A stretch of DNA of 64,000 nucleotides. Origin: Cellulophaga sp. F20128 (GTDB lineage: Bacteria > Bacteroidota > Bacteroidia > Flavobacteriales > Flavobacteriaceae). The notes under the pieces are model-generated. The model ran no database searches and was not told where the DNA came from. It worked only from the letters and a program-made list of their open reading frames with translations. Below, piece by piece: positions 20,146-36,242 of the stretch. The position numbers and the translations under genes were made by a program. Each line of letters opens with the position of its first letter. The first letter of the stretch is position 1. The stretch spans positions 62,001 to 126,000 of the forward strand of contig NZ_JALKBA010000006.1 of NCBI RefSeq assembly GCF_023015805.1. The letters are read 5' to 3'.

Positions 20146-20259
20146 CGCCCTAAATGGAATAGCCTATAAAATAATAATGTACTATATTGTCCTATAAAAG
20201 AAATAACAGTAGACATACAGTTAGCTCTACGCTACTTGCAATATGAAAAACTAATAAGA

Positions 20260-20925
20260 ATGAACGAACAAGCATTTGAAGTTCTAGTGAATGGAAATAG
20301 AGAAATATATGCGAATCTCTATGAATATCCAAATGAATGCCCACACTGTCACAAACATATAATCCCTAAATATAAATCAGATTATTTAAGTGGAGAACAG
20401 TATACAATTTATATTACACTCATTTGCCCAAATACTAAATGTGACAAACCATTTATCGCGCAATATGGAAGAGAAAACCATAACAATTATTACTATGAAA
20501 AAATCGTCCGCTATTCGGTAATTACTAAAACCTTTTCATCTGAAATAATTGAAATTTCTCCTCAATTTCAGAAAATTTATAATGAAGCATTTTTCGCTGA
20601 GCAGAATAATTTATTTGAAATATGCGGTGTAGCATACCGGAAGTCTTTAGAGTTTTTACTTAAAGATTATTTAATAAAACTATTCCCAGAGAAAAAGGAA
20701 TTAATAATAAAAAATTCAATTATGAATTGTATAAGTTCACATGTAGATGACACAAGATTAAAAACAACATCAAAGCGTGCAATATGGTTAGGGAATGACC
20801 ATACACATTATGAAAAAAAGTGGAATGACAAAAATTTAAGTGATTTAAAAACTTTAATTAAACTAACTGTAAATTGGATTGAATCAGATGTTTTAACAAA
20901 AAAATTTAATGATTCAATGCAATAA
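20260..20925 (+). CDS. DUF4145/HEPN-like protein with zinc ribbon (first cassette gene)
   Basis: A 221-residue protein from the ATG at 20260 (an upstream TTG at 20236 is less likely). A CPHCHK...CPNTKC zinc ribbon is near the N-terminus. The C-terminal half has the DUF4145 pattern SPQFQKIYNEAFFAEQNNLFEICGVAYRKSLEFLLKDY and an RAIWLGNDHTH segment equivalent to the GN-x-x-H motif. DUF4145 is one of the HEPN-related families seen in restriction and defence contexts. The gene is AT-rich compared with the DUF1501 gene upstream, and it opens the cassette-like region. Confidence 0.72.
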   Translation: MNEQAFEVLVNGNREIYANLYEYPNECPHCHKHIIPKYKSDYLSGEQYTIYITLICPNTKCDKPFIAQYGRENHNNYYYEKIVRYSVITKTFSSEIIEISPQFQKIYNEAFFAEQNNLFEICGVAYRKSLEFLLKDYLIKLFPEKKELIIKNSIMNCISSHVDDTRLKTTSKRAIWLGNDHTHYEKKWNDKNLSDLKTLIKLTVNWIESDVLTKKFNDSMQ

Positions 20926-20933
20926 ATACTATA

Positions 20934-21064
20934 GGAAACAATAGCTATAAATAATACGGAGTTTGGTGTTTAATCAAAGGTCGTTGCGTGTTTGTAACGT
21001 CTGAATTTCCTTCGGAAATTCCTCGCACGTAAACCCGCAACTATTCTTATACAAACCGTTGGCA
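20934..21064. repeat. attC-like palindromic site S1
   Basis: A 131-bp imperfect palindrome. Outer arms are GCTATAAATAAT...CGGAGTTT and AAACCCGCAACTATTCTTAT. It has a perfect inner hairpin GAATTTCC-TTC-GGAAATTC (21003-21021) and ends in GTTGGCA (21058-21064) just before the next gene. It contains GTTGCGTGTTT, the reverse complement of the AAACACGCAAC found in other sites of the region. Confidence 0.6.
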
Positions 21065-21070
21065 ATAATT

Positions 21071-22234
21071 ATGACCAAATTTCTAGAATTAACATATTAT
21101 AATAATAGAGATTTTATATTTCCTAAGCATATTGAACCAATAATTGATACAAATCTAGTTGGTATTCAAACTCATTATATTGATTTGTCTGATAGCAATT
21201 ATGGAGAGAATTTATTCCGTGAATTTCATAACATTGATGATTTAGATTTAATTTTAGAATTAATCAAAGAATATGGAGTGTTTTTCGAAAAATTCCTTTC
21301 CGCTAAATTTAGACACCGAATTCATCCATTTTTTAATAATGAAGAGAATTCTGAATATCTAATTGAGAAATGCAGATTTTATTATAAAATTAAAGAAAGT
21401 AGAAACAGTATAATTGGTCGAATAAAACACGATTTCCTTAAAGTTTCATTAACTAGGTTAAAGAATAATTTTATTTATCAAGAACTAAAGAAATCTGAAC
21501 TAGAAAAATCGGAAATTAGAACATGTGCAATTTGTAACAATCAATTTCAACCAATAAAACTACCTGATTGGGTTTACTATGGTTCGAATGGTAATGATAC
21601 AATTTGCTTTCAATGCCCAATTAGCAAAAATCAAAAAAAACAAGAATTAAAAAAATTAATCCATAAACTTGTTAAAACCTGCAACTTTATACCCAATTCA
21701 GATTTTAATCCAATCAATATTAACTTTAGCTCAAGGATTAATAAAGAAAAATGGAACGAGGTTTGTAAGATAATATTTCAAATGGGAGTTCAGGGAAATG
21801 ATACGCTCCATAGCAGTTCTGTTTTCAAAAAGAAATTTGGTAGTTGGTTCAAAGCGCTTGCAGAATCAAATGTGCTTCCTAACGGTATTTTGGAATCTTC
21901 AAGAGGTTTTAGATGTATTGCAAGAAGTGGCAATGAATGTAATTCACTTGACGAAATGTTTGTAGACAACTGGTTATTTGAAAATAATATAATTGCAGAA
22001 AAAGAACCGATATATCCTAAACATGTAATTTATAATAAGTCTGGAAGAAGACGAGCAGATTGGAAAGTAGGTAAATATTTTATTGAATATTTCGGATTAA
22101 AAGGCGAGGAAGCATATGACAAAAAAACTAAAGAAAAATTTCTATTAGCAAAAGAATTAGATTTAGAGCTTATAGCAATATTTCCATCAGATTTAAATTC
22201 CATACACAAAAAACTTAATGTATTATTAAAATAA
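21071..22234 (+). CDS. Zinc-ribbon protein with PD-(D/E)XK-like nuclease domain (cassette gene)
   Basis: A 387-residue protein from ATG 21071 (an in-frame TTG at 21059 overlaps the attC-like end). A zinc ribbon CAICNNQF...CFQC sits near residue 155. The C-terminal ~115 residues look like a restriction-endonuclease fold: SLDEMFVDNWLFENNI, then RRRADWKVGKYFIEYFGL with Asp and Glu in the D-x(6-15)-E spacing, then a helix KTKEKFLLAKELDLELIAIF, as in Vsr/DUF559-like nucleases. The central part is unrecognised. It is AT-rich and occupies one cassette-like unit. A role in DNA defence is inference. Confidence 0.6.
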   Translation: MTKFLELTYYNNRDFIFPKHIEPIIDTNLVGIQTHYIDLSDSNYGENLFREFHNIDDLDLILELIKEYGVFFEKFLSAKFRHRIHPFFNNEENSEYLIEKCRFYYKIKESRNSIIGRIKHDFLKVSLTRLKNNFIYQELKKSELEKSEIRTCAICNNQFQPIKLPDWVYYGSNGNDTICFQCPISKNQKKQELKKLIHKLVKTCNFIPNSDFNPININFSSRINKEKWNEVCKIIFQMGVQGNDTLHSSSVFKKKFGSWFKALAESNVLPNGILESSRGFRCIARSGNECNSLDEMFVDNWLFENNIIAEKEPIYPKHVIYNKSGRRRADWKVGKYFIEYFGLKGEEAYDKKTKEKFLLAKELDLELIAIFPSDLNSIHKKLNVLLK

Positions 22235-22270
22235 CAAAACCACAACTTTCCATATACATAAACGTTGGCA
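22235..22270. repeat. Shortened attC-like junction S2
   Basis: Only 36 bp separate the gene stop from the next GTTGGCA (22264-22270). The right arm (CATATACATAAACGTTGGCA) is recognisable but the left arm and loop seen in neighbouring sites are missing, so the site looks truncated. Confidence 0.45.
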
Positions 22271-22295
22271 TTCATTGAAAAGGAATCTACAAACT

Positions 22296-23873
22296 ATGAT
22301 TGAAATAGATAAAAATATATTTGAAATTGTTAATTTAGGTTTCAATAAATTATTACCTGAAAAGAAAAATGATATAATAGCTGATTTTAAAAATCATCCT
22401 CTAGCAATAAAACACGAAAATTATAAATATGAAATACTAGAAGATGCAAAAAATCAATTATTATTAAAAACTTGGAAAGAAAATGATATTGGTTCTGGGA
22501 GAATTTTAGGAAATATTAAAAATGCAATAAATGTAAAATCAAATAATTTAATAGATTGGAGAAAAAAAGATGATTTTAAGAAATTAAAAGCAAATAGAGA
22601 AAATGACAAATTTTTATTTGACTTCTTTAAATCTAAAATTCAAGATGAAATTGCTTTTAAAAATTTCATTGAAATTGGATTTTCATATCAATTGATTGCC
22701 TATATTTTTTTTATAAAAAATCATCAAAAATATATGCCTATTTCGCAAGAGAAATTTGACGAAATATTTAGTTCTATAAATATCGATTTTAAAACAAGTC
22801 ATAACTGTTCTTGGGAAAATTATTTAGAATACAATGAAATAATAAAATCATTTAGAAAACAACTAACAACAAAACACCAAATAGTTTCTCTACTAGATGC
22901 GCATTCTTTTTTATGGATTTATGGTCTTCAATTAGAAGAATCAGAAAAAAAAATCAAGGATAAAAAAGAAACTAAAGGAAAAACGCTTGAAAAGTATTTT
23001 AAAAGCCACTTTGATGACTCTAATTTTAAATTAACTACCAAAAAAGATAAAGATAAAGTAGGCACTAATTTTGAAATACAATCAGAGGAAATAAGAACTA
23101 GATTTCAACTTTCAAAAAAAGCAAAAAATATATTTTCATTTATAACTGGAGATTCTCATTTGTTATTTTATTTTAGAATTGATAGAGACAAATTCATTAA
23201 TAAAGAAATAGAAGAAAAATTTAAGAATCAAATTAATCCAAAAACTGATGGTGAAACAACAATAACTTTAAATGACACAGAAGAAATTGACGAGTTATTT
23301 AAACTATTATTTATTAACGTTATATATCTTGAAAATAAACAAAAAGTAGTTTTTAGTCAAGGAGAAACTAATGAAAACTCAAGACAACTTTCAGATGAAT
23401 TAAAAATATATCATCCTAAAAAAATTATTGATATAGATTCACTTGATGATTCAAAAACAGAAATAGACTATATTGAAATTCATCGAAAACAAATGGAAAT
23501 TGGAGATTTAGCAGAAAAAATTGTTTTAAAAAGTGAGATAGATTTTTTAAAACCTAATTTTCCTAAACTTGCTGAAAAAGTACGACTTGTTTCAAACGAT
23601 TCACACCTTGGTTGTGATGTATTATCATTTGAAACCGATGGAAAACAAAAACAAATTGAAGTAAAAGCAATTTCTACAACCAACAATTCAAAGAGTTTTA
23701 TAATTACACAAAACGAATTATCCAAATCAAAAACATATTCAAATTATTATGTTTATTGTGTAACTAAAGTAAATTCTGAAAATCCAGAAATATTAAGAAT
23801 TAAAAATCCGGATTTTGAAAAAAATGAGGAGTTTTTAATAAAACCATTAACGTATAAAATAACATTTGATTAA
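22296..23873 (+). CDS. DUF3883 nuclease-like domain protein (cassette gene)
   Basis: A 525-residue, very Lys- and Asn-rich protein from ATG 22296. The N-terminal ~350 residues are unrecognised (LLKTWKENDIGSGRILGNIKN near residue 55; a charged linker around 210-240). The last ~130 residues match DUF3883: IGDLAEKIVLKSE, VRLVSNDSHLGCDVLSF, KQIEVKAIS, SFIITQNELSKS and YYVYCVTKV, a PD-(D/E)XK-related fold common beside helicases and restriction systems. Its flanks are complementary: GTTGGCATTC before and GAAATGCCAAC after, marking it as one cassette-like unit. Confidence 0.68.
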   Translation: MIEIDKNIFEIVNLGFNKLLPEKKNDIIADFKNHPLAIKHENYKYEILEDAKNQLLLKTWKENDIGSGRILGNIKNAINVKSNNLIDWRKKDDFKKLKANRENDKFLFDFFKSKIQDEIAFKNFIEIGFSYQLIAYIFFIKNHQKYMPISQEKFDEIFSSINIDFKTSHNCSWENYLEYNEIIKSFRKQLTTKHQIVSLLDAHSFLWIYGLQLEESEKKIKDKKETKGKTLEKYFKSHFDDSNFKLTTKKDKDKVGTNFEIQSEEIRTRFQLSKKAKNIFSFITGDSHLLFYFRIDRDKFINKEIEEKFKNQINPKTDGETTITLNDTEEIDELFKLLFINVIYLENKQKVVFSQGETNENSRQLSDELKIYHPKKIIDIDSLDDSKTEIDYIEIHRKQMEIGDLAEKIVLKSEIDFLKPNFPKLAEKVRLVSNDSHLGCDVLSFETDGKQKQIEVKAISTTNNSKSFIITQNELSKSKTYSNYYVYCVTKVNSENPEILRIKNPDFEKNEEFLIKPLTYKITFD

Positions 23874-23884
23874 AAACAACGAAA

Positions 23885-24010
23885 TGCCAACACTGTGTAA
23901 AAAAAATTGCTGGTAAAAGCCTACTTACGAAAATCCTCGCGGATTTTCTATTCGGTTTTTATTTTCTAAATTAGGTACTAAAACACGCTACGAAATCATA
24001 AACGTTACCT
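23885..24010. repeat. attC-like palindromic site S3
   Basis: Left end TGCCAAC (23885-23891) is complementary to the GTTGGCA that precedes the gene at 22296. There is a perfect inner hairpin GAAAATCC-TCGC-GGATTTTC (23929-23948). The conserved right half has CTAAATTAGGTACTAAAACA. The right end GTTACCT (24004-24010) belongs with the next gene. Total ~126 bp. Confidence 0.65.
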
Positions 24011-24022
24011 GCAAGCTGAAAA

Positions 24023-24700
24023 ATGAGCGACAAAAAAGAAAAAAATCAAATTGATATATTTAAATCAGTAAAGTCAGAGGCTCTAACTGAATTAACACCT
24101 GAACTTTTAGAAACTGGACTTGATTTAATAACTGAATCGGACTTATTAAAAGATATTCCTGTATTTGGAATTGGATTTAAAGGTTATAGTCTATACAAAA
24201 AAATAACGGAGTCCTTTTTCACCAAGAAGTTGCTCAAATTTCTAATTGAATTAAATGAGATTCCATTATCAGACCGTGAAAATTTCATTAATGAATTGGA
24301 ATCAAAAAATGAAACGAATAAAGCAGGGGAAAAACTACTAATAACTCTGAATAGATTAAACGATGACGAGAAAGCGACTATTATCGGAAAGCTGTTAAAA
24401 AAAACAATCATAGGAAAATTGGAGTATAAAGATTTTAATAGACTGACTCACATTATTGACAATGCTTACATAGAGGATTTAAAATTGTTGGAAAATAATT
24501 ATCATCTTGCATATATAAGTGATGATGTTAAATCAAATTTACACCAAATAGGACTTATAAAACAATCGATTTCGGATGTTAAAAGACAAAGACAATCACA
24601 AATTAGAGTTGGGGGAAATGGAGATGATGTCCAACCTAAACTGATTTATAAAATTAACGATATTGGCTCAAAATTAATTGAATTCGGTTTTGATAAATAA
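24023..24700 (+). CDS. Helical protein of unknown function (cassette gene)
   Basis: A 225-residue, mostly alpha-helical protein with no family I can name. A hydrophobic stretch DIPVFGIGFKGYSLYKKITESFFTK (about residues 45-70) could associate with membranes; it resembles small helical proteins in toxin or abortive-infection contexts, though without a diagnostic motif. The GTTACCTGC before the gene is complementary to the GCAGGTAA(C) after it, which is now split by a group II intron. Confidence 0.6.
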   Translation: MSDKKEKNQIDIFKSVKSEALTELTPELLETGLDLITESDLLKDIPVFGIGFKGYSLYKKITESFFTKKLLKFLIELNEIPLSDRENFINELESKNETNKAGEKLLITLNRLNDDEKATIIGKLLKKTIIGKLEYKDFNRLTHIIDNAYIEDLKLLENNYHLAYISDDVKSNLHQIGLIKQSISDVKRQRQSQIRVGGNGDDVQPKLIYKINDIGSKLIEFGFDK

Positions 24701-24705
24701 AGCCA

Positions 24706-25016
24706 GCAGGTAATCGAGTAGACGGGGTCCGCCCCTAAGTAGGAACGGACTGCGCCTCTCACACCACCGCACATACAGGTCTCGTATACGGTTTCTGTTT
24801 GTCAGTACCGAGTTTTGTAGTCTCGCTTCCTTCAGATGTAACCTCGCGGTTACCACCCTTGCGACTTACTAATGGTTCGAAGCGTTACCTCCGCCCATAA
24901 GGGACTTGCACCCTCTAAATGAATTAGCTACCTTTCGGTAAAGTAAAAGATGTCCATGCTGGGCACACACAATGTATAAACGGCATTAAAACGACCGTTT
25001 ATACGGTACGTTGTGC
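24706..25016. repeat. attC-like site S4, interrupted by a group II intron
   Basis: GCAGGTA at 24706-24712 is the left end, and 24969-25016 is the rest. Removing 24713-24968 restores GCAGGTAACAATG. A perfect 10-bp stem follows, GTATAAACGG (24974-24983) with CCGTTTATAC (24995-25004), and then the right end GTTGTGC (25010-25016). The restored site is about 55 bp, a usual attC size. Confidence 0.7.
24713..24968 (-). mobile_element. Compact group II intron without ORF, in an attC-like site
   Basis: Read on the minus strand, it begins GTGTGCCCAGCATGG, contains GGGTGCAAGTCCC (a hallmark of domain I), has a domain V-like hairpin ACCGTATACG...TGTGCGGT (24765-24792), and ends CTACTCGAT with an A in branch-point position. 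It is only ~256 bp with no reverse transcriptase, so it is an ORF-less or internally deleted copy that would need a helper protein. It reads opposite to the host gene array and splits TTGT/TACC. This placement matches group IIC-attC introns, which insert in attC bottom strands. Boundaries are inferred from the end motifs and from repair of the interrupted site. Confidence 0.72.
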
Positions 25017-25035
25017 TTAATTTGCGAAAAAAAAT

Positions 25036-25506
25036 ATGGAACAAATTAGAAATTATAGTTTAGACGAATTTGAGGAACTTATTTTAAATCAATTTAAAAA
25101 CATATTTGATTTAGAATTGTTAATCCTTAAAGGTCATATAATAACAGAATTTACTATAAACTGTTATCTTGAAAATTTATCGAATAAAACTGAAGCAAAT
25201 TTTTTCAAAGAAAGATATAATCACAGTTTAAAAATCGGAATGATAGAACATTTCGGGAAATTTGGAGAGAAAAGTACTGGATTGATAAAGTCATTAAGAT
25301 TGCTGAATAAAATAAGAAACGGAATTGCGCATACTCTAACTGTTAATGAAAATTTAATTCAGGAATATATAAATTCTGTAATTCAAATCGCAAGTGAAGA
25401 TTTTATAAATCCTGACTATGAAATAAGACTGAGATTCTCAATGGCTACAGGTTATTTATGCGCTGAAATATTTCGTGAATATTATGACCAAAGAGAAAAA
25501 GAATAA
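25036..25506 (+). CDS. HEPN-type protein (cassette gene)
   Basis: A 156-residue helical protein. RNGIAH at residues 94-99 is the R-x4-H motif of HEPN ribonucleases, within a typical helix LRLLNKIRNGIAHTLTVNE. N-terminal helices contain LLILKGHIITEFTINCYLE, also usual for HEPN families. Many HEPN proteins are toxins or defence RNases, but there is no obvious partner antitoxin here. GTTGTGCTTAATTT before the gene mirrors AACTAAGCACACC after it. Confidence 0.68.
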   Translation: MEQIRNYSLDEFEELILNQFKNIFDLELLILKGHIITEFTINCYLENLSNKTEANFFKERYNHSLKIGMIEHFGKFGEKSTGLIKSLRLLNKIRNGIAHTLTVNENLIQEYINSVIQIASEDFINPDYEIRLRFSMATGYLCAEIFREYYDQREKE

Positions 25507-25510
25507 AACT

Positions 25511-25777
25511 AAGCACACCAAAGAACTGAGGTAAAAAACAAACAAATTCTTCGTTAATTTGAGATACTATTATTCTAGGCTCATAGATTCAAAAATCTGG
25601 TTCTTTGCGCCTTTTTATTGTATTCATTTTCTATTTATCTAAGCACTATGGAAACGTAAGTTTCATCATAGGACCTTCCAGATTTTGCAATAGCAAAAGA
25701 CTTGCCAGAACCCTTAGTTTTTATTTGCTAAATTAGGTGCTGAAACACGCAACGAATCTTATACCAACAAGTTCTGT
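25511..25777. repeat. attC-like region S5
   Basis: The left end AAGCACACC (25511-25519) is one mismatch from the complement of the GTTGTGCTT that precedes the gene at 25036. The right half carries TTTGCTAAATTAGGTGCT and AAACACGCAACGAATC, with GTTCTGT at 25771-25777 before the next gene. The ~200 bp between carry an extra inserted or decayed stretch. Confidence 0.55.
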
Positions 25778-25791
25778 TCAATTGACAAACT

Positions 25792-26358
25792 ATGAAATAC
25801 GAAATAGTAAAAGAAGAAATAGTTTTTGATAATTTTTTCAAAATAAAAAAAGCAAAAATTAAACACGAATTATTCGACGCTACTACAATAGAAGTTGAAA
25901 GACTTTCTTTTGAGAGAGGTGATTCTGTTGCAATTCTTATATATGAAAAAGATACTGACTCTTTACTTTTTACAAACCAATTTAGATATCCAACAATTAA
26001 AGAAAAAGATGGTTGGATACTGGAACTAACCGCAGGTAGTCTAGAAGGTAATGAAGCGCCTAAGAATAGAGTTAAAAAAGAGGTTGAAGAAGAAATAGGA
26101 TATCAGGTAAACGAAATAGAATTTATAAGTTCATTTTTTGTTTCCCCAGGAGGTAGTTCGGAAAGAATTTTATTGTACTATTCAGAAGTTAATTCTTCCG
26201 ATAAACTTTTTAAAGGTGGAGGTATGAAGTACGAAAAAGAGGATATCCAATTACTAAAGATAAAACCGAAAGAAGTCTTGCAACAATTGAAAGAGAATAA
26301 ATTTCGTGATGCTAAAACCATCATTGGAATTCAATGGTTTCTAGCAAATAAAATTTAA
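25792..26358 (+). CDS. NUDIX hydrolase, ADP-sugar pyrophosphatase type (cassette gene)
   Basis: A 188-residue protein cleaving nucleoside diphosphates linked to a second group, most like NudK/ADP-ribose pyrophosphatases. Residues ~80-110 hold the Nudix box: G-x5-E then KEVEEEIGY, with Lys replacing the first Arg of REUxEE. FRYPTIKEKDGWILELTAG precedes the box as in ADP-sugar hydrolases, and FFVSPGGSSERILLYYSE follows it. GTTCTGT before the gene is complementary to ACAGAAC after it (26390-26396). Confidence 0.85.
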   Translation: MKYEIVKEEIVFDNFFKIKKAKIKHELFDATTIEVERLSFERGDSVAILIYEKDTDSLLFTNQFRYPTIKEKDGWILELTAGSLEGNEAPKNRVKKEVEEEIGYQVNEIEFISSFFVSPGGSSERILLYYSEVNSSDKLFKGGGMKYEKEDIQLLKIKPKEVLQQLKENKFRDAKTIIGIQWFLANKI

Positions 26359-26389
26359 AGATTATTTGAAGACATTTATAAAAACAGCA

Positions 26390-26540
26390 ACAGAACAAGA
26401 CTGTTTTATTTCATTTGCGCTACAACAAATTAAAAGGTTCTTTTTTTTATTGAACAGCACTTGCCCCGAATCTTATCTGCCAGCACGTTTAGGTTTTATT
26501 TACTAAATTAGGTGCTTAAACACGCCACTAATCGTATACA
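26390..26540. repeat. attC-like region S6
   Basis: It starts with ACAGAAC, complementary to GTTCTGT before the NUDIX gene. It includes the first copy of an 87-bp direct repeat (26428-26514) and the conserved CTAAATTAGGTGCTTAAACA core, and ends near CATCAACAGTAAC before the next gene. Confidence 0.5.
26428..26514. repeat. 87-bp direct repeat, copy 1
   Basis: Near-identical to 28237-28323 over 87 bp with only a handful of differences. It contains GGTTCTTTTTTT, TTGAACAGCACTTGC and CAGCACGTTTAGGTTTTAT and lies in the right half of an attC-like region. Confidence 0.85.
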
Positions 26541-26557
26541 TCAACAGTAACAATAAT

Positions 26558-26854
26558 TTGAAAAAAATAAACTACAAAACAATATTTCTAGCTTATATTC
26601 CAATCGGAATTATACTTTTTTTCATTCTAAAATCGGAACTAAGTACTGGATTTAGAGGATACCATGACTTTGTAAAGTATACCATCTTTTTGGTTAGTGG
26701 AATCATAGTGTTTATTTACACTATAATAAAACAAGGGATAAAAATAAAGAAGAAAGTTGAAGTTAGAGAAGCCAAAATTATTATAATCCTACTTTTAATT
26801 TCTGCTTTTTTGGCCATTGGCTCATTATATATTCCAGATTATTTATTATACTAA
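26558..26854 (+). CDS. Small membrane protein (cassette gene)
   Basis: A 98-residue protein with three hydrophobic segments (about residues 8-24, 38-56 and 72-92) and short charged loops. No family is recognised. The start is a TTG at 26558, as no ATG is available in frame; this lowers certainty. Confidence 0.5.
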   Translation: MKKINYKTIFLAYIPIGIILFFILKSELSTGFRGYHDFVKYTIFLVSGIIVFIYTIIKQGIKIKKKVEVREAKIIIILLLISAFLAIGSLYIPDYLLY

Positions 26855-26943
26855 AACTAAAAACACCCTATTATTTACTTCCTATAATTTCAGAATAGAA
26901 TTTAAACAACTAAGCTTTACAACCACTTTTATAAAAATTTAAA

Positions 26944-27771: not shown

Positions 27772-27802
27772 ATTGAATAAAAACGTACTATTGCCAACAA
27801 AG

Positions 27803-28105: not shown

Positions 28106-28236
28106 TCGTTATTTGGGAGCTTCTGATAATCCAAGAGGAGGAATAAGGTGGTATAAAGGACAAAGGATATTATTAATCATAAAACGTAATTCAACACTGT
28201 ATTCCATAGAAAGCCCTAGTACATTGCTCCGCAGCT

Positions 28237-28323
28237 AATTAAAAGGTTCTTTTTTTAATTGAACAGCACTTGCTCCGCATCTTATCTGCCAGCACGTTTA
28301 GGTTTTATTTGCTACATTAGGTG
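28237..28323. repeat. 87-bp direct repeat, copy 2
   Basis: Second copy of the repeat at 26428-26514, in the same orientation. The ~1.8 kb between the two copies holds two cassette genes and the IS110 remnant. Confidence 0.85.
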
Positions 28324-28386
28324 TGAAAAACACCTAACACGCTATATACAAACGAATTATCACGAATTCACTTAAACTATACATCT

Positions 28387-30003
28387 ATGAAAAATTGCCT
28401 AAAAATTATTGTCATAGTACTTTTTATAAGCTGTGAAAACAATAAAAAAGACACGACAACTATTGTAGAAGTAGACCAAACAACGCTTGCCCATCACATT
28501 GAACGCCTAGCTTCAGATGAATTTCTAGGAAGAAAGCCCTTTACGGAAGGTGAAGTAAAAACAGTGAATTATTTAAAAGATGAATTTGAGAAACTCGGGC
28601 TTTTACCAGGAAATGATGGAAGCTTTTTTCAAGAGGTTCCTATGGTAGAAATTGACGGAACACCTTCTGAAACTATGATTATTGCTGGAAAAAATGAAAG
28701 TATTGCATTAACACGCTTGCAAGATTTTGTAGCCACCACCAATAAAGTAGTACCTGATGTGAGCCTTGAAAACTCCGAACTTGTGTATGCCGGTTATGGC
28801 ATTGTTGCACCAGAATATGGCTGGAACGATTATGAGGGCATTGATTGGAAAGGAAAAACAGCCGTAGTTTTAATTAATGATCCCGGTTTTAAATCGGGAG
28901 ATTCCACCTTGTTTAAAGGCAATGAAATGACCTACTATGGCCGTTGGACCTACAAATATGAAGAAGCGGCAAGGCAAGGTGCTGCTGGAGTCCTCATTAT
29001 TCATGATACAGAACCCGCTTCTTATGGCTGGAATGTGATAGAATCTAGCTGGAGTGGCGCTAAGTTGATCATTGAAAGCGATTTACCGATTTTAAATGTA
29101 GAATCATGGATAAGTGGTGAGAGTGCGCAAAAAATGTTTGATGCCTCTGCAATGAAAGGTCAAGATTATAAAACCCTCGCTAGTAATAAAAACTTTACAC
29201 CAGTGCCATTAGACGTAAACGTTTCTGTAGCCATTAAAAATAAAATTAAAAAAGATGTTTCTAAAAATGTAGTTGCTTTACTACCGGGTACAGACAGCAA
29301 AGATGAATATATTATGTATACTGCCCATTGGGATCATTTTGGGGTGGGCAAACCTATTGATGGTGATTCTATCTATAATGGTGCTGTGGATAATGCCTCC
29401 GGAACGGCAGGCCTATTGGCCATAGCAGAAGCATTTAAGAAAAGTAACCCAACAAAACGTTCTATTGTATTCATGGCGCTTACAGGAGAAGAACAAGGTT
29501 TACTCGGTTCTGCCTATTATGCTGTAAACCCTATTTATAACCCTAAAAAAACGGTAGCCAATATTAATATAGATGCGCTAGCTAGTCCTGGAAAAATGAA
29601 AGACCTGACCATTACCGGTTATGGTCAGTCCGAAATGGACGAATATGCCAAAGAAGCCGCACTAAAACAAAACCGATACATTATTCCAGATCCTGAAGCC
29701 GAAAAAGGATATTTCTTTAGATCAGACCATTTTAATTTTGCGAAAATTGGAATTCCTGCCTTGTATGCGAGCGGTTCCTACGAAGGCTTTGATATCAGTA
29801 TTGAAGCTATAACAAAGTTTAAGGAGGATTATGGCATGTACAAATACCATCAGCCCTCAGACGAATACCATGCTGAAACCACAGAACTAAGCGGTGTACA
29901 GTTAGATTTACAACTGTTTTTTAAGGTAGGATTAAAATTATCTAATGAAGATTATTTTCCAAAATGGTACAACGGAAGTGAATTCAAAGGGGCTAGAAAA
30001 TAA
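28387..30003 (+). CDS. M28 family zinc aminopeptidase, lipoprotein
   Basis: A 538-residue metallopeptidase with a lipoprotein signal (lipobox before Cys16, FISC), a PA domain insert (~150-250, GAAGVLIIHDTEPASYGW), and the M28 metal-binding core. The core has HWDHFG with the first His, VDNASGTAGLLAIAEAF with the bridging Asp, LTGEEQGLLGSAYYA with the catalytic Glu, and RSDHFNFAKIGIPALYASG with the last His. It is probably anchored to the outer membrane or periplasm and trims peptides. It sits within the cassette region and is followed by TGCCAAC at 30010. Confidence 0.93.
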   Translation: MKNCLKIIVIVLFISCENNKKDTTTIVEVDQTTLAHHIERLASDEFLGRKPFTEGEVKTVNYLKDEFEKLGLLPGNDGSFFQEVPMVEIDGTPSETMIIAGKNESIALTRLQDFVATTNKVVPDVSLENSELVYAGYGIVAPEYGWNDYEGIDWKGKTAVVLINDPGFKSGDSTLFKGNEMTYYGRWTYKYEEAARQGAAGVLIIHDTEPASYGWNVIESSWSGAKLIIESDLPILNVESWISGESAQKMFDASAMKGQDYKTLASNKNFTPVPLDVNVSVAIKNKIKKDVSKNVVALLPGTDSKDEYIMYTAHWDHFGVGKPIDGDSIYNGAVDNASGTAGLLAIAEAFKKSNPTKRSIVFMALTGEEQGLLGSAYYAVNPIYNPKKTVANINIDALASPGKMKDLTITGYGQSEMDEYAKEAALKQNRYIIPDPEAEKGYFFRSDHFNFAKIGIPALYASGSYEGFDISIEAITKFKEDYGMYKYHQPSDEYHAETTELSGVQLDLQLFFKVGLKLSNEDYFPKWYNGSEFKGARK

Positions 30004-30009
30004 AGCTAG

Positions 30010-30228
30010 TGCCAACAAAAGCTATAGACAATAAGGGCTTCGGGCATAACCGAAAGATTTGTGTATCTTTATAAAGTCGTTAAACTGAAAATTACACAAT
30101 AGCGAAATATTCAATTTTAGCTTTAAACAAGAAAAAATAAATCAATACAATACCTTTTAGTTTTGTGCATAGGCGGAAACGAAAAATTTCCATAAAACCA
30201 AACTACGCCTAGCCTAACCGTTCTGTGC
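30010..30228. repeat. attC-like region S9
   Basis: It starts TGCCAAC (30010-30016) and ends GTTCTGTGC (30220-30228), which is complementary to the sequence after the glutaminase gene. It contains an inverted GGCG...CGCC pair (TAGGCGGAAAC / AACTACGCC). It is longer than other sites, so part of it may be inserted sequence. Confidence 0.45.
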
Positions 30229-30243
30229 AATTAAAATAGTTAA

Positions 30244-31158
30244 ATGAATTTTGAAGACTTAATCCGAGATGTTTACCAGAAAATTAAGAATATAGACGAT
30301 AAAGGAGAGATGGCATCATACATTCCTGAACTGTCAAAAGTTAATCCAAAGAATTTTGGAGTACACATATCGACAATTAAAAAGGTTAACTTCGGTATGG
30401 GTAATTATAATGGCAAATTTTCTATTCAGAGTATCACAAAGGTACTTTCATTAATTCTGGCCTATCGCATTGTTGGGGATGAAATATGGGACAGAGTTGG
30501 AGTGGAACCTTCTGGTACAGCATTCAATTCTCTTGTTCAACTAGAGGCTGATAAAGGTATTCCTAGAAACCCATTTTTAAATGCAGGAGCTATCGTAGTA
30601 TCAGATATACTTTTAAGTAATTTAAAGAATCCTAAAGAAGATTTTATCGACTTTGTACGAAGTATCTCTAACAATAAAGCATTGGAATATTCGAATAAAA
30701 TAGCCCAGTCAGAAAAAGATGTAGGCTATAGAAATGTAGCCTTATGTAATTTCATTAAATCATTTGGTAAAATTGAAAATGAGCCCTCTGATGTTCTTGA
30801 TTTCTACTTTGACTTATGCTCTTTGGAAATGAGCTGCAAAGAGCTTTCAGAATTATTCTTATTTTTAGCTAATAATGGTCTTGGAGTACATAACAACAAG
30901 TCAATATTGAGCGAAAGTCAATCTAAACGAATAAATGCTTTAATGCAAACATGTGGTTTTTATGACGAATCAGGAGAATTTGCCTTTAAGGTTGGGCTTC
31001 CAGGAAAAAGCGGTGTTGGAGGAGGTATTATAGCAATACATCCAAATCAATATGCGATTGCTGTTTGGAGTCCAAAGTTAAATAAGAAAGGGAATTCGCA
31101 TAAGGGAATGAAATTTTTGGAAGAATTTACAACTAGATCTGAATTATCTATATTTTAA
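30244..31158 (+). CDS. glsA: Glutaminase (cassette gene)
   Basis: Serine-dependent glutaminase converting glutamine to glutamate and ammonia. The 304-residue size fits the GlsA family. SIQSITKV gives the Ser63-x-x-Lys66 catalytic pair. RVGVEPSGTAFNSLVQLE, PRNPFLNAGAI, GYRNVALCNFIKSFG and LPGKSGVGGGIIAI are the family's conserved blocks. The flanks GTTCTGTGCAATT and CTGCACGACACAGAAT are imperfect complements, so the gene lies in a cassette-like unit, unusual for a metabolic gene. Confidence 0.93.
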   Translation: MNFEDLIRDVYQKIKNIDDKGEMASYIPELSKVNPKNFGVHISTIKKVNFGMGNYNGKFSIQSITKVLSLILAYRIVGDEIWDRVGVEPSGTAFNSLVQLEADKGIPRNPFLNAGAIVVSDILLSNLKNPKEDFIDFVRSISNNKALEYSNKIAQSEKDVGYRNVALCNFIKSFGKIENEPSDVLDFYFDLCSLEMSCKELSELFLFLANNGLGVHNNKSILSESQSKRINALMQTCGFYDESGEFAFKVGLPGKSGVGGGIIAIHPNQYAIAVWSPKLNKKGNSHKGMKFLEEFTTRSELSIF

Positions 31159-31163
31159 AAACT

Positions 31164-31319
31164 GCACGACACAGAATACAATTCATTGTGGAGGAATTCC
31201 TTCTCAAAAATTGCTTTACCAGTTCGCTGTGCAAGTACCACGTGAATTAATTAAATTTCTGCCACGACGGAAGTTCTAACTGATTGCGCGTGACAAATCA
31301 TATACAGACACATTATGCC
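31164..31319. repeat. attC-like region S10
   Basis: Left end GCACGACACAGAATAC mirrors the sequence upstream of glsA. Right end ATTATGCC (31312-31319) is complementary to GGCATAAC at 32316-32323, which overlaps the stop of the next gene. The right arm has the familiar CAAATCATATACAGACA. Confidence 0.5.
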
Positions 31320-31377
31320 AAATTATTGAAAACAACCGACAAATGTTCAAATAATCCATACATACAATCTTAAAATT

Positions 31378-32322
31378 ATGAATAAAAAGTCAGAATCAGA
31401 AGAGTTAATTATCATTAAAAGAGAAATTTCCTTTCAGAAAGTAGAAATAGAAACGCAATCCGCAGAACTACTCTTAATTAAAAAAGAACACTCTGTACAA
31501 AATGCTGAAAAACAAAAGCTAACGGATGAATTATTCATTGCAAACCAAGAACTTATCCTTCAGAATAATGAAAAACAAAAACGGGCCGAGGAATTAATAA
31601 TTGCGAACAAAGAACTGGCATTTCAAAAAGAAGAAAAACAAAAACGTGCTGATGAATTAACTATTGCCAATAAAGAGCTTGTTTTTCAAAATAACGAAAA
31701 GCAAAAACGTGCTGATGAATTAACTGTTGCAAACCAAGAGCTTGTTTTTCAAAATGAAGAAAAGCAAAAACGAGCTGATGAATTAATTATCGCAAATAAG
31801 GAGCTTGCTTATCAAAATGATGAAAAGCAAAAACGAGCTGATGAATTAACTATTGCAAATAAGGAGCTTGCTTACCAAAATGATGAAAAGCAAAAACGAG
31901 CTGATGAATTTATTATCGCAAATAAGGAGCTTGCTTATCAAGCAGAAGAAAAGCAAAAACGGGCCGACGAGCTAATTCGTACAAATACAGAGCTTACACT
32001 CCAATACGAAGCAAAAAGAGGGTTAGCAACAGAACTGAGAATTGCCTGCGGCGAACTCAAAAAAACGGAAGTATATCTTAGAAACTATATTAAGGGATTA
32101 GAAGAAATGATGTATTTAACTTCACATAATGTAAGGCAACCTGTTTCACAAATTTTAGGCATTTCAAATTTACTAGACCTGTCTACAAATTATTCTTTAG
32201 AAGAGATGAAAAAAATAGTTGGTTATATCAAACATTCTGCACAATCTTTAGACAATTTCACAAAAGAACTCTCTGTATTTATGAAAGAAATTCACAGTAA
32301 AAATAAAAATAACTGGGCATAA
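31378..32322 (+). CDS. Repeat coiled-coil protein with orphan histidine-kinase dimerisation domain
   Basis: A 314-residue protein. Residues 44-211 are eight 21-residue repeats of the form EKQKRADELxxANKELAxQ, predicting one long coiled coil. Residues ~240-305 look like a DHp/HisKA domain (MMYLTSHNVRQPVSQILGIS, H-box His, then VGYIKHSAQSLDNFTKEL). There is no HATPase, sensor or transmembrane segment, so it cannot phosphorylate itself alone; it might be a phosphotransfer or dimer-poisoning protein. The repeats are nearly identical at DNA level, pointing to recent expansion. It lies in a cassette-like unit. Confidence 0.75.
   Translation: MNKKSESEELIIIKREISFQKVEIETQSAELLLIKKEHSVQNAEKQKLTDELFIANQELILQNNEKQKRAEELIIANKELAFQKEEKQKRADELTIANKELVFQNNEKQKRADELTVANQELVFQNEEKQKRADELIIANKELAYQNDEKQKRADELTIANKELAYQNDEKQKRADEFIIANKELAYQAEEKQKRADELIRTNTELTLQYEAKRGLATELRIACGELKKTEVYLRNYIKGLEEMMYLTSHNVRQPVSQILGISNLLDLSTNYSLEEMKKIVGYIKHSAQSLDNFTKELSVFMKEIHSKNKNNWA
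31507..32010 (+). repeat. 63-bp coding tandem repeat, eight units
   Basis: Eight in-frame 63-bp units, each beginning with a GAAAARCAAAAR-type codon string for EKQK. Units five to seven are almost identical in DNA sequence. Copy number probably varies by slippage or recombination. Confidence 0.85.
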
Positions 32323-33012
32323 CACCATCTAGTAGAAATTGGTGCAGACGAGATAATATAACATTATGTTTCTTTAAACAACCATTTGTGGTTTTAGGCA
32401 GTTGAGTGTTCCAAACGTGAACTATAATAATTGAGATCGTTAATACTGAAAAGAATAAAATCTATAGAAATAAGTGATAGTTAGTCCTCATAAAAGATCG
32501 CTGATTAAAAAATACTTCTTCGAATTCTCATATAATATTAATAATGATAATGAAGTAGCAACCATTTCAGATTTTGAGCGATTTAAATCTCTGAATTAGC
32601 AAAGCAATATTCTTTGGCGGACAGCTACAACAGGGACAATGGACCTATTGTTTTGCAATAGATTATAGAGAGTCCAAAACAAGACAAAGGAAAAGCCCTA
32701 TTCCAGTGCTCTATGCAAATTAATAGTTTTTTCATTTACTAGAATTTGCTACTCACCTACTCACCTAAAAGTTTGGTTTTTTTTGCTAAATTAGGGGTTT
32801 AACCCTGCAACTAATACTACACCTAGCTATTATGGACTTTTTTTATTAAAACACCTTATAGTTCTCCTCTTTTTCTATATAAAGTTATTTAACACAAACT
32901 ATGGAAACACCTTCTGCTTCATTCATTAAAAACCCTCCTATTTATATTTAAAATCATATATTTAGTGAAACTAAACGCTAATGTTAAAATTCATTAGAAA
33001 AATTTGTAAAAA
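32323..33012. other. Long gene-poor stretch
   Basis: It begins within GGCATAAC, the left end of a decayed attC-like site. It holds a ~40-codon open frame near 32475-32600 (VIVSPHKRSLIKKYFF...) that I cannot support as a gene, and a decayed core TTTTTGCTAAATTAGGGG around 32777-32795. Otherwise nothing is recognised. Confidence 0.5.
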
Positions 33013-33693
33013 ATGAAAGGTATCATCATCGCATTAATTTTTACAGGAATTTTGATTTCTTGTAATTCTGCCGACAAAACTAAAAACGGAACTGAGAAAT
33101 CTGCCGAAACGGAAATCTTAACCTCTAGTGACTCTATAGCCGTGGCAAAAAATTATACTACCATAGATACTGATGAAGCCTTGATTGCAACAGCATTAAT
33201 GGCTGCTCCAAAAGCAAGCAGAACCGGATGTAAAGTTATTGGATACAATATGGCTGGCGAATTTGTAACGCTAAGAGAAGGAGATAATGAATTTATTGTG
33301 CTCGCAGATAACCCCAATCAGAAAGGATTTAATGCCGCATGTTATCACAAAGAGCTTGAACCCTTTATGGCGCGAGGAAGAGCCTTAAAAGCAGCAGGAA
33401 AATCAGGACCAGAAATTTTTGCGATACGAGAAGCAGAAGTGAAATCGGGCCAACTTCATATACCTACGGGAGCAACCTTGCATATCTACTACGGAACAAA
33501 AACATTGTATAACCCTAAAACTTCAGAAGTGGAAGATGCGCAACTCCGTTATGTGGTGTATATGCCTTGGGCAACATCGGCATCTACTGGTTTACCAGAG
33601 ATCCCAGCCGCAAAAAACCATCCTTGGCTTATGAATCCAGGAACACATAGAGCGCATATTATGATTTCACCTTTAGCAGAAGATAGTGAATAA
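33013..33693 (+). CDS. Lipoprotein of unknown function
   Basis: A 226-residue protein with a lipoprotein signal and lipobox LISC (Cys17). A Ser/Thr/Glu-rich linker follows, then a ~170-residue domain (ASRTGCKVIGYNMAGEFVTLREGDNEFIVLADN, CYHKELEPFMARGRALKAAG, PAAKNHPWLMNPGTHRAHIMI). The paired Cys and several His residues could bind metal, but I recognise no family. It is probably periplasmic. Confidence 0.75.
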   Translation: MKGIIIALIFTGILISCNSADKTKNGTEKSAETEILTSSDSIAVAKNYTTIDTDEALIATALMAAPKASRTGCKVIGYNMAGEFVTLREGDNEFIVLADNPNQKGFNAACYHKELEPFMARGRALKAAGKSGPEIFAIREAEVKSGQLHIPTGATLHIYYGTKTLYNPKTSEVEDAQLRYVVYMPWATSASTGLPEIPAAKNHPWLMNPGTHRAHIMISPLAEDSE

Positions 33694-33984
33694 ATAAAAA
33701 AAGATATAGCTGCTCAAAACAGCATAATAAGAGACACCTATAAAAGCACAACCTTCGACAGTTTAAATCACTAAAAATAAGGTATTTAAAAACTTATTGC
33801 ACCGTACCAAATCCATGTAAAAAGAGAGGAGGTTTTTGCGAAGCTTCTAGCTTGTATCCGGTTTTTAATAGTTAATTAGGTCGTTAATATACAGAACAAA
33901 CCATACACGAGCACCTGAGCAACACCCTAACAAAACTTCAAAAGATAAAACAACAGAAATTCAACTGAATTAATAGTAGCACGA

Positions 33985-34935
33985 TTATTTTAAATACTGA
34001 ATCAAATATGCAATCACCAAACTCACCACAAGTCCGATATTTACTTTGCCAAAATCTTTGGCAATGATGATGTAGGTGAATTTTATTTTCTTTTTATTCA
34101 ATAAATAGGTTATCCCTAATTCCCTTCCTGCCAAAATTCCAATAAATACCCAAGTTGTGCTCATGGGAATTGAATTGAGGTTGCCAAATACAAATAGAAA
34201 AACACCATAGATTAAGTCAATAATTGTGGCAGAACGAATATTCTTGGTGTTCGATTTTTGATTGACTATTTCCTGAATCTTTCCGCCCCGTTTCCTGAAA
34301 ATATAAGCCATAATCAGAAGAATGCAGCCCAATGAGATTAAGAGTTGTTCAAGGGAGAGTTTTCTTGGAAGAAAAACATAAATATTCGCAAAATCCTGAA
34401 TCAGCCATTGCGACCATAAAAATCCGGTAGAAAACCATTGCGCCACTAACCAATAATGCTTCTTTTTATGTTTATCGAGTTTAGCGAGAGAAAATTTAGA
34501 TTCAAATTTTCTTGAAATAACAACATAGACCACCATGGCAAAGACAAAGGAAATTGCATACCCAAAGACCGATTTTAATATCATTTTTTCTATGATCATA
34601 CCCGAAGAAAAAATACTTAAAATCATAAACGTGGTACTCACAGGAATTCCAAATCGAGTGATGGCTAGCAGGGCAATGGGTGCTAACAGATACCACCATG
34701 CTACTGTTTCTGGTAACGGTATGTTCGCCAATCTACCATAAGACACATCACCATCATTTACATACCATCCGTAACACAGGGTTATGGATAGAATACCGAT
34801 AGCAAAAAGCCAAAGCCACCACCATTTTACCTTAAAATTTGAAGATATAAACGTACCTAGCGTCTGAATAACATCGTTGGCAATCACCGAATAGGCAGAA
34901 ATAATAAAACCAATATACCCAATAACCAATTCCAT
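33985..34935 (-). CDS. PiT-like inorganic phosphate/ion transporter (divergent)
   Basis: A 316-residue polytopic membrane protein with about nine hydrophobic segments. Two internally related halves carry ANDVIQTLGTFISSN and GIPVSTTFMILSIFSSGMI in the first, and FGNLNSIPMSTTWVFIGILAGRELG in the second, matching the duplicated PiT signature (GxPVSTTH). The usual His is replaced by Phe and Trp, so substrate or coupling may differ. It is the only minus-strand gene between 20 and 39.9 kb. Confidence 0.7.
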   Translation of the reverse strand: MELVIGYIGFIISAYSVIANDVIQTLGTFISSNFKVKWWWLWLFAIGILSITLCYGWYVNDGDVSYGRLANIPLPETVAWWYLLAPIALLAITRFGIPVSTTFMILSIFSSGMIIEKMILKSVFGYAISFVFAMVVYVVISRKFESKFSLAKLDKHKKKHYWLVAQWFSTGFLWSQWLIQDFANIYVFLPRKLSLEQLLISLGCILLIMAYIFRKRGGKIQEIVNQKSNTKNIRSATIIDLIYGVFLFVFGNLNSIPMSTTWVFIGILAGRELGITYLLNKKKIKFTYIIIAKDFGKVNIGLVVSLVIAYLIQYLK

Positions 34936-35125
34936 AAGTGCATAAATAAAAGCACAGTAAATGTAGGGGGAAATTGATATGAAAAAATGCGATGTAAGAA
35001 AGATTTTTAAAAATTAATTTTTATGAATTTCTTAACGTACAATAGCGCTACATTTGTTCAATAATCCTCTAAAAATGCAAGGCATTAAGTGTTTATAAAA
35101 GCGCCACTAAATGTTTTTTAAAATC

Positions 35126-36134
35126 ATTGGCAACGGCTCAATATTACCAAAACAAACTAAAATTAAAGACTTTAAATACTCATGCAACACCTAACCCCTT
35201 GGATTGTACTTATCTCCTACCTGCTTGCACTTTTGTTGATTGACTTTTTTGTTTTACACAAAAAAAATCGTGTAACTTCAGTAAAGAGAGCCATTTTTGA
35301 AACTATTTTCTTTATCATCAATGCCTTATTATTTTCAGGCCTGATTTATTATTTTTATGATACGTCTCTTGTAGCAAATGCAAATAATCTTGAACCCGCC
35401 CAAGCTGTAGTTAAATACTTAACAGGCTATCTTATTGAGCTCTCCTTAAGTGTAGACAACCTTTTCGTTATCGCCATTATCTTTACGTCCTTTAAAATTC
35501 CAAGACAATACCAGCACAAATTGCTTTTTCTTGGAATTCTAGGAGCCATCATTTTTCGTGCGATATTAATTAGTGTGGGATTGATACTTTTAGATAAAAT
35601 TCACGGAATGAGTATTGTTTTTGGCTTGTTTTTATTGTTTACAGCCTTTAAAATGTTGAAAAAAGAGAGTGAACACAAAGACATTGAGGAACCCAAAGGG
35701 GTGATGAAATTTTTTCGATTCAGCAAGGAATTGCATGATGGAAAATACATAACCAAGGTCAATGGGAAACGAGTTTTTACAGCACTTTTTGGAGCATTGA
35801 TAACAATAGAATTTACTGATTTACTTTTTGCTTTAGATAGTATTCCTGCAATTTTTGCGGTGACTACAGACCCCTTTATTGTTTATAGTTCAAATATATT
35901 TGCAATTATGGGCCTAAGGTCACTTTACTTTTTCCTTTCAAATATGTTGGAGAAATTTGTTTATTTGAAGTACAGTGTTTTCGCAATACTAATATTTGTT
36001 TCGGTGAAATTGATGACAGCTAGCTTAATTGAAATTCCCGAATGGTTTTCACTGCTATTTATTGGAATTTCACTCTCAGCAGGAATTTACAGCTCAACCA
36101 TTACTATTAAATCGAAATAAAGTCAGTTGCCAAC
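35126..36134. repeat. Matched ends flanking the terC gene
   Basis: ATTGGCAAC (35126-35134) before and GTTGCCAAC (36126-36134) after the gene are reverse complements apart from the first G, the same cassette-type arrangement seen from 21 kb onwards. Confidence 0.5.
35182..36120 (+). CDS. TerC family membrane protein
   Basis: A 312-residue protein of the TerC/Alx family, linked to metal (manganese, calcium) handling and tellurite resistance. It has about eight transmembrane helices. Family motifs: TGYLIELSLSVDNLFVIAII (acidic residues in the membrane), LGILGAIIFRAILI, ITIEFTDLLFALDSIPAIFAVT and NIFAIMGLRSLYFFLSNM. It is cassette-like by its matched flanks. Confidence 0.92.
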   Translation: MQHLTPWIVLISYLLALLLIDFFVLHKKNRVTSVKRAIFETIFFIINALLFSGLIYYFYDTSLVANANNLEPAQAVVKYLTGYLIELSLSVDNLFVIAIIFTSFKIPRQYQHKLLFLGILGAIIFRAILISVGLILLDKIHGMSIVFGLFLLFTAFKMLKKESEHKDIEEPKGVMKFFRFSKELHDGKYITKVNGKRVFTALFGALITIEFTDLLFALDSIPAIFAVTTDPFIVYSSNIFAIMGLRSLYFFLSNMLEKFVYLKYSVFAILIFVSVKLMTASLIEIPEWFSLLFIGISLSAGIYSSTITIKSK

Positions 36135-36242
36135 ACAGGATTTTGAAATTATTAATTCAATTCAAATTTAAAACGATTGCGAAATTAAAGGCTGATAAAA
36201 TTCTTTAGTGGAATAATGCGGGATAGCCAAAAACCGACCAAA

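Follow-up and report, generated by a model that had tools for sequence, protein, structure and literature searches.

Which system assembled the run of single genes at positions 20200..36140 of a 64,000-nucleotide stretch of Cellulophaga sp. F20128 (NZ_JALKBA010000006.1, positions 62,001 to 126,000; the window)? The original prediction described an integron-like array of gene cassettes without an integrase, and took it for either a cluster of attC sites lacking an integrase (CALIN) or a related cassette system, perhaps served by a different recombinase. Our analysis indicates that the locus is very probably a decayed array, lying away from its recombinase, of an integron-like chromosomal system for capturing cassettes in Bacteroidota, with a recombinase lineage of its own. 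In what follows, G, C and L numbers denote the genomes, contigs and loci of our data set.

Units of one gene each, most of them on the plus strand, preceded by GTT and followed by AAC, are present as described. From about 20.2 to 31.4 kb, the open reading frame (ORF) list and the sequence give single genes on the plus strand; together they make up a degenerate cassette array in which the two ends belonging to a gene are complementary. This complementarity is strong in three genes, here called C (GTTGGCATTC / AAATGCCAAC, 9/10 letters), D (GTTACCTGCA / AGCAGGTAAT, 8/10) and E (GTTGTGCTTA / TAAGCACACC, 9/10). By eye, the end pairs of genes F, GH, I, J and TerC are partial or mutated, and the claim that ends match within each gene holds to that extent. 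Summed over nine genes, the best matches come to 71, against a mean of 62.7 for permuted partners. The excess over chance that the prediction called for was found; because such a total arises in 37 of 20000 permutations of the partners, the pairing signal of the window taken alone is real but modest.

The motif TATACANNAACGTTRGC occurs four times in the genome, with no occurrence of the reversed control. It led to arrays on other contigs, then to a recombinase that adjoins one array (L024 in G002), and through this enzyme to arrays in relatives. Thirty-one diverse sites align over their full length and were used to train a covariance model, R1 (20 sites from L061-L076, 7 from other recombinase loci and 4 from the window's own genome). 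The site is about 130 nt long and has an attC-like architecture, R''-L''-loop-L'-R', reading NNNNAAC, three letters, GTRTA, a stretch, TTGC and a loop of about 80 nt, followed by GCAA, a stretch, TAYAC, 4-6 letters and CGTTNNNN. Across the L''-L' stems of the 31 sites, 53 cells changed on both sides versus 19.7 in shuffles (score 0.233 versus 0.079); two of five measures, pairs with double change and further pair types, did not rise above the shuffles. When the partners were slid along the stems, the proportion of paired cells fell from 88.9% to 22-43%. For 149 distinct model-aligned sites, in an alignment that leans to structure, the values are 220 versus 45.3 and 0.244 versus 0.053. The R1 matches fall into three size classes with different loops, short (~53 nt), standard (~131 nt) and long (~196 nt) (L130 1555-1607 and 8320-8372; L125 12420-12471; L119 8375-8572), a variation that resembles the variable terminal structure of attC.

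In the window, R1 finds clear sites at 23885-24010 and 20933-21064 (E 7.3e-11 for the latter), one weak match (at 25649) and five doubtful ones (E 0.05-0.54), two of which fall outside 20200..36140. The final ~5 kb of this interval hold remnants alone, and the array extends as predicted to about 31 kb rather than over the whole interval. Its features are as follows.

20220..20262, plus strand: start of cassette A, core GTTAGCT before gene 20262-20925; the end (AGCTATA) is degenerate.
20933..21064, plus strand: cassette site 1, R1 50.3 bits, 3' half intact (CTTATACAAACCGTTGGCA).
22242..22270, plus strand: 3' half of the cassette site before gene C, 5' half lost; pattern TATACANNAACGTTRGC.
22264..24003, plus strand: cassette C, with GTTGGCATTC, a NO VEIN C-terminal domain protein (PF13020), TGCCAAC and a site.
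23885..24010, plus strand: best cassette site of the window, R1 68.2 bits, E 1.6e-15.
24004..25009, plus strand: cassette D, with GTTACCTGCA, gene 24023-24700, AGCAGGT/AAC and a short site with an intron remnant.
24705..24712, plus strand: R'' of the short site (AGCAGGTA), continuing at 24969 when the flanks are joined.
24713..24968, minus strand: group II intron remnant of 256 nt, GTGTG...CTCGAT, with Rfam RF02001 at 24742-24853; boundaries inferred.
24969..25016, plus strand: remainder of the short site, AAT-GTATAAACGG-loop-CCGTTTATAC-GGTAC-GTTGTGC; R1 gives no match.
25010..25519, plus strand: cassette E, with GTTGTGCTTA, gene 25036-25506 and TAAGCACACC.
25510..25777, plus strand: degenerate site after gene E, R1 20.6 bits, E 0.004, at 25649-25777.
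25771..26396, plus strand: cassette F, with GTTCTGTTCA, a NUDIX gene (PF00293) and ACAGAAC.
26390..26540, plus strand: degenerate site after gene F, partial R1 match at 26485-26523, 15.6 bits, E 0.08.
27792..27798, plus strand: R'' core TGCCAAC after the DKNYY gene (PF13644), from the sequence.
30010..30016, plus strand: R'' core TGCCAAC after the M28 peptidase gene (PF04389), from the sequence.
30220..31176, plus strand: cassette J, with GTTCTGTGCA, a glutaminase (PF04960) and a mutated end GCACGACACAGAA.
31164..31318, plus strand: degenerate site after the glutaminase gene, R1 16.4 bits, E 0.05.
35126..36134, plus strand: TerC-family gene (PF03741), decayed end pair ATTGGCAACG / AGTTGCCAAC by eye, no R1 site.

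Among ten window ORFs, Pfam recognised the NO VEIN C-terminal domain, NUDIX, DKNYY, M28 peptidase and glutaminase families; four ORFs had no match and one a sub-threshold match alone. Homologues of gene E were found in 2 of 148 other genomes, at 33-34% identity. Both are followed by an R1 site, and the copy in G187 (34%), a member of another genus, lies between two R1 sites inside an array. The left-flank gene of the window array was present in one of 17 other genomes of the genus searched (G012), where a different gene follows it, and no clean empty site for the array was found among them.

Within the arrays, R' of one site matches R'' of the next, that is, across the intervening gene. All 33 consecutive site pairs spaced 200-850 bp apart agree in letters 1-5 after GTT, with 32, 30, 0, 31 and 30 agreeing in letters 6 to 10, respectively. 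A second set of 83 pairs less than 1 kb apart gave 82, 79, 82, 82, 81, 77 and 67 for letters 1-7, 2 for letter 8, and 76, 72 and 64 for letters 9-11. With no distance limit, four letters agreed in 35/55 pairs (shuffles: mean 5.9, maximum 15), compared with 7/55 when both ends belong to one site; disagreement often concerned widely separated pairs, between which a site was probably missed. Given this agreement within genes, a cassette can be written as GTT-N7-x-(ATT) ... gene ... N7-AAC-site, in which N7 belongs to the cassette and GTT is conserved by the site. The complementarity of the ends serves no apparent purpose once a cassette is integrated and would be the record of a formerly closed circle. 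The arrays follow integron logic, as the prediction had supposed from the window. Its remark that the cores depart from GTTRRRY also proved correct, the second letter after GTT being T in 24/33 cores (for example GTTGTGC and GTTGGCA). Using a model-free chain search that required 7/7 matching letters, chains of at least three links were seen in 3 of 12 loci with true IntI, the classical integron integrase, and in 5 of 5 loci of the new type. On these links, selected for their seven matching letters, letter 8 pairs in 14/18 cases at the IntI loci, after which pairing fades, whereas at the new-type loci letter 8 pairs in 0/30 (A.C 22, G.T 6, A.A 2) and letters 9-11 pair in 28, 24 and 17 of 30.

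Relatives of the L024 enzyme (E ≤1e-30) occur in 87/120 Flavobacteriaceae genomes, and sites were found in 84 of these 87, versus 22/33 genomes without a recombinase hit (Fisher p 3e-5). In total, R1 sites are present in at least 106 of the 120 genomes and phylum-wide in at least 62 of 296, counts that are lower bounds since 28 or 11 candidates were scored per genome. Outside Flavobacteriaceae, one genome of another family in the class has both the recombinase and an array (L178). Around 20 recombinase loci, taken with about 10 kb on each side, 131/138 sites lie downstream on the recombinase strand, in 19/20 loci; the other seven belong to one locus (L128), where they are upstream and divergent, and the remaining two quadrants are empty. 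Twelve of these loci (L119-L129, L137) come from genomes outside the R1 training set and hold 75 sites, 68 downstream and co-oriented and the seven divergent ones of L128. Long arrays, in which 10-14 sites stand no more than 10 kb from the recombinase, were seen in L119, L120, L121, L133 and L135. In named records, 42 sites occur in 12 of 40 loci scanned (our choice among 80), 40 of them downstream and co-oriented and two (L233) upstream and divergent; array-bearing examples are Winogradskyella ursingii, Seonamhaeicola aphaedonensis, Algibacter onchidii and Zunongwangia mangrovi. The divergent, upstream arrays of L128 (9584-10729) and L233 (2940-3983) have the classical-integron arrangement.

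The recombinases are about 300-410 residues long, the common form having around 100 N-terminal residues without a Pfam match. As to this extension, the 50 of 227 fold-search matches listed are recombinases and integrases (model pTM, predicted template modelling score, 0.51). The best structural match of the recombinase is XerA (5hxy), with IntI4 (2a3v) close behind. Positions aligned with R, K, H, R, H and Y, which we take to be the catalytic residues, are invariant in 19/19 array recombinases. The enzymes often end in (N/S)PLD, as IntI does, and three of four tested pass NCBIfam NF040815 (site-specific tyrosine recombinase/integron integrase; XerA-type). The search for IntI itself, in the window's own genome and among relatives, was negative, with 0/60 relatives above the TIGR02249 cut-off; phylum-wide, 84/296 genomes pass it, none of them in this family or order among the matches listed. 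KGxKxR and HxLRH are separated by 64-66 residues in 47 distinct rows and by 106-107 in 25 IntI, without overlap (three rows of each group were not measurable), and residues 180-246 of IntI4 2A3V align opposite query residues 198-221, so that about 42 residues of the IntI-specific insertion are missing. In the tree, 17 IntI rows, sampled from this phylum alone, form a clade at 100/99 that excludes 29 array recombinases, and the latter stand apart from three Xer rows at 100/99; the deeper order is weakly supported. The conjecture of a different recombinase thus gains support from an enzyme without the IntI-specific insertion.

An attI-like site follows the stop codon of the recombinase. Four genomes of the same genus (G002, G003, G006, G011) share AATAAACGCAATAAACTGCGTTTACTAACTAGTT at this place; their identical attI ends in GTT and is followed by four different cassettes. 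At 15/20 loci, a cassette begins at a GTT no more than 120 nt from the stop codon, and at least 6/7 letters of its N7 match the first site; 8/17 attI candidates carry palindromes that 0/300 shuffles reach. The cassette set, drawn from 150 of 280 site matches, is incomplete and comprises at least 268 cassettes. It yielded 15 homologous pairs, 14 within a genome and one between two, after one of 16 was dropped as the same place counted twice; 6/15 involve only four cassettes of G031. Ten pairs lose their likeness 3-4 letters past the cassette end, and in 8/15 the leftward likeness extends less than 30 nt, ending in the site before, so the site travels with the gene that precedes it. In the pair between genomes (G074 with G125), likeness ends 100-131 nt before the boundary. 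The attI boundaries and the different first cassettes suggest that cassettes enter at attI, next to the recombinase.

For the window itself, the prediction of an array without integrase is correct for its contig (C81), which holds none of the nine tyrosine recombinase (PF00589) matches of the genome, and incorrect for the genome as a whole. The search for a recombinase elsewhere that had been proposed identified a cognate enzyme on C35 (L060:17148-18287), behind which come an attI with a palindrome, GTTGTAAAAC, a single cassette and a site of 43 bits. The end letters of this first cassette are complementary in 7/7 positions, so that a complete platform sits on another contig of the same genome. 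The genome has 35 R1 matches at E ≤1, several of them clustered (C11, C17, C44, C53, C114). Since its sites are mutated and no recombinase is near, the window is probably a mutated array with stranded cassettes. It shares with CALIN elements the presence of at least two sites and the lack of a nearby recombinase, and differs from them in having sites of the new type and, elsewhere in the genome, a cognate recombinase. The reading as a plain CALIN of attC sites is not supported, given that the sites have their own consensus and that R1 finds none in 11 of 12 IntI neighbourhoods. A 298-residue recombinase on C44 was rejected as the cognate enzyme: a gene that by eye, without a family search, looks like an IS91-type transposase follows it, and the tree places it elsewhere than the array recombinases. 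In L021 (1166-3199, C44), this recombinase, which ends near SPLD, and the transposase-like gene stand inside a six-site array, and in the tree the C44 type is nearer to IntI (96/88) than to the array recombinases.

The end of gene D had been given as GCAGGTAAC; the sequence reads GCAGGTAATC because the intron remnant interrupts the AAC. This remnant sits in R'' of the short site of cassette D, antiparallel to the cassettes, and joining its flanks restores AGCAGGT-AAC-AAT-GTATAAACGG...CCGTTTATAC-GGTAC-GTT. The bottom-strand junction is TTGT/T. According to a published description, group IIC-attC introns enter the bottom strand of attC in R'', at TTGT/T and opposite to the cassettes, and carry GUGYG at their 5' end (PMC7923331). 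The window remnant agrees with them in position, strand, opposite direction and GUGYG start; it has no reverse transcriptase, and only its position and ends assign it to this subclass. In plasmid records of Tenacibaculum and Chryseobacterium, related introns begin after GTGT within the R'' end of R1 matches scoring 95 and 33 bits. In these records, L282 (1372-1506) and L283 (1377-1506), the introns break R1-type sites at the R'' position seen in the window, which suggests that these group II introns home to the new site type; the relative in L283 carries an ltrA gene. A Persicobacter intron had no R1 site, and the strict site pattern was absent from the joined flanks of L282 and L284, R1 finding the L282 site unjoined. 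At Rfam gathering scores, no group II intron was detected in seven other array loci.

We also evaluated which strand of the site folds. An A.C mismatch on the top strand is a tolerated G.T wobble on the bottom strand; the reverse would be expected of an RNA hairpin transcribed from the top strand, and an unfolded duplex should show no bias. In the 31-site alignment, 53/62 stem mismatches are A.C on top, none is G.T and nine are other; in the 150-site alignment, 263/274 are A.C and three are G.T. Three column pairs carry most of this excess (46/53 and 244/263). Because most mismatches are of this kind, the bottom strand seems to be selected to fold, as in integrons, which are reported to recombine the bottom strand of attC (PMC2727003). 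Folding energy was lower for the bottom strand in 6/6 sites, and the z-score in 5/6. An explanation of the sites as top-strand RNA elements was set aside, the 31 sites having A.C mismatches instead of one-sided G-U changes.

These data allow us to propose how the system may operate. The recombinase would join attI, double-stranded and directly behind the recombinase gene, to a cassette site, the partner of attI being the folded bottom strand of the site of a circular cassette. Exchange would take place at the GTT of R', so that a cassette starts with GTT-N7 and ends with the complementary N7-AAC and a site, and new cassettes would enter next to attI. The cassette structure, the complementarity, the location and orientation of the arrays, the attI boundary and the differing first cassettes are what was computed; from these, catalysis by this recombinase, a single-strand step and a circular intermediate may be inferred. 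The system appears to work like an integron. Among the features of IntI integrons that we looked for, an adjoining attI (15/20 loci) and cassettes in one orientation with R'-R'' pairing were found, and the insertion near patch III, a position in the IntI clade and GTTRRRY/RYYYAAC cores were not. Both systems have a recombinase, an adjacent attI, mostly one-gene cassettes in one orientation, a 3' site of the form R''-L''-L'-R', a GTT boundary, a bottom-strand signature and long arrays with near-identical sites. They differ in that the recombinase here lies outside the sampled IntI clade, lacks the IntI-specific insertion and is usually extended at its N-terminus, attI follows its stop codon, the spacer asymmetry is by eye the opposite one, and letter 8 is unpaired.

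Several results weigh against the proposed cassette system. In the window, 9/210 combinations of ends from different genes likewise score 9 or 10, equalling the best same-gene pairs, and both window strands fold no better than shuffles. Several single sites lack the drawn stem in their minimum-energy fold. Five of 20 loci have no attI-type boundary near the gene (three none, two far away), and the clade of the array recombinases is itself weak (67/66). The 22/33 genomes that carry sites without a recombinase hit belong here too. That the window holds nothing but chance inverted repeats in AT-rich intergenic DNA, with degenerate sites and matching cross-combinations as its due, can nevertheless be given almost no credence in view of two sites at 50-68 bits, the permutation result and the homologue of cassette E in the array of another genus. 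Scarcely more credible is the idea that the sites are dispersed intergenic repeats, such as terminators or repetitive extragenic palindromic (REP)- or miniature inverted-repeat transposable element (MITE)-like sequences, with the complementarity of the ends as a by-product: many sites do hold a loop hairpin and sit 3' of genes, yet the four-letter match runs across genes rather than within a site, and the sites adjoin one recombinase family in one orientation. The host enzymes XerC and XerD might instead move the cassettes, the adjacent recombinase being incidental. Genes in the pdif modules of Acinetobacter plasmids likewise move between short recombinase sites, theirs being 28-bp Xer sites, and both the palindromes in attI candidates and the sites in genomes without a recombinase hit would suit such a scheme. 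The cassette sites are unlike the dif 28-mers, however, attI follows the recombinase gene, and sites and recombinase are associated across genomes, which leaves this explanation very improbable. The array recombinases share their core domains with XerA, XerC and XerD, XerA being the best structural match and NF040815 a XerA-type model; they differ in their link to cassette arrays and in standing apart from the Xer rows in the tree.

The more serious alternative is that these are ordinary integrons, with a divergent IntI that has lost its extra domain and attC sites that current models miss. We consider this unlikely on balance, although much speaks for it. The cassette logic, the (N/S)PLD ends, the bottom-strand signature and the attC-type intron insertion are shared, and NF040815, passed by three of four enzymes, includes integron integrase in its name. 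The IntI insertion is described as not fully conserved in an integron-like subgroup (PMC8138268), and classical cassettes are reported to pair at their ends beyond four letters, often over 9-11 nt (PMC2727003). R1 matches are also commoner, outside the family, in genomes with IntI (22/85, mostly one or two weak matches) than in others (23/181; p 0.013), and the split from classical integrons may therefore not be clean; either R1 detects some classical attC sites, or both systems share cassettes. Among the 12 true-IntI neighbourhoods, only L169 has an R1 site (67 bits), divergent from intI. Against ordinary integrons stand the separate clade of the phylum's IntI, the motif distances without overlap, and letter 8, which pairs at canonical links and not here, with resumption at letters 9-11 only in the new type. 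By eye, the longer spacer lies between L' and R' here, as opposed to R''-L'' in canonical sites. In preference to both this and the Xer scheme, the cassette system with its own recombinase lineage remains our reading. That it represents a second, separately evolved integron lineage, in which a Xer-like recombinase acquired its own attI and structured site, is a tentative extension to which we give rather less than even weight, and the same holds for its corollary of superintegron-like arrays across Bacteroidota that capture the bottom strand without the IntI-specific domain held essential. True-IntI genomes with R1-type sites of up to 118 bits were seen in L170 (2128-3116, G307) and L169 (8144-8275, G224), where cross-capture between the systems or assembly contamination is possible.

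The IntegronFinder 2.0 report names Salinibacter ruber M1 as the only Bacteroidetes with a complete integron, and gives only In0 for its earlier survey (PMC9024848). Our literature search, with preprints and most subscription papers outside its scope, returned no title or abstract on integrons or such cassettes in Flavobacteriaceae. If the proposed system is real, a large pool of cassettes has gone unnoticed in a major bacterial family, and a natural recombinase without the IntI-specific domain becomes available for testing what that domain does in strand-specific capture.

Relatives of the recombinase extend beyond the phylum. In 11 loci outside Bacteroidota, no R1 site was found, other site types not having been sought there. 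Archaeal, Patescibacteria and sphingomonad records hold relatives of 35-48% identity (L225, L237, L258, L267, L272, L244, L252, L242, L245), and R1 scans of three of these nine (L242, L245, L258) gave no site. In G140, contig C1 has eight near-identical matches to a 304-residue tyrosine recombinase; the one placed in the tree, L062 (6090-7001), groups with the IS91-associated recombinase type. In the window, 31378-32322 encodes a protein in which, both by eye, tandem repeats of about 21 residues precede a region resembling a histidine-kinase dimerisation helix.

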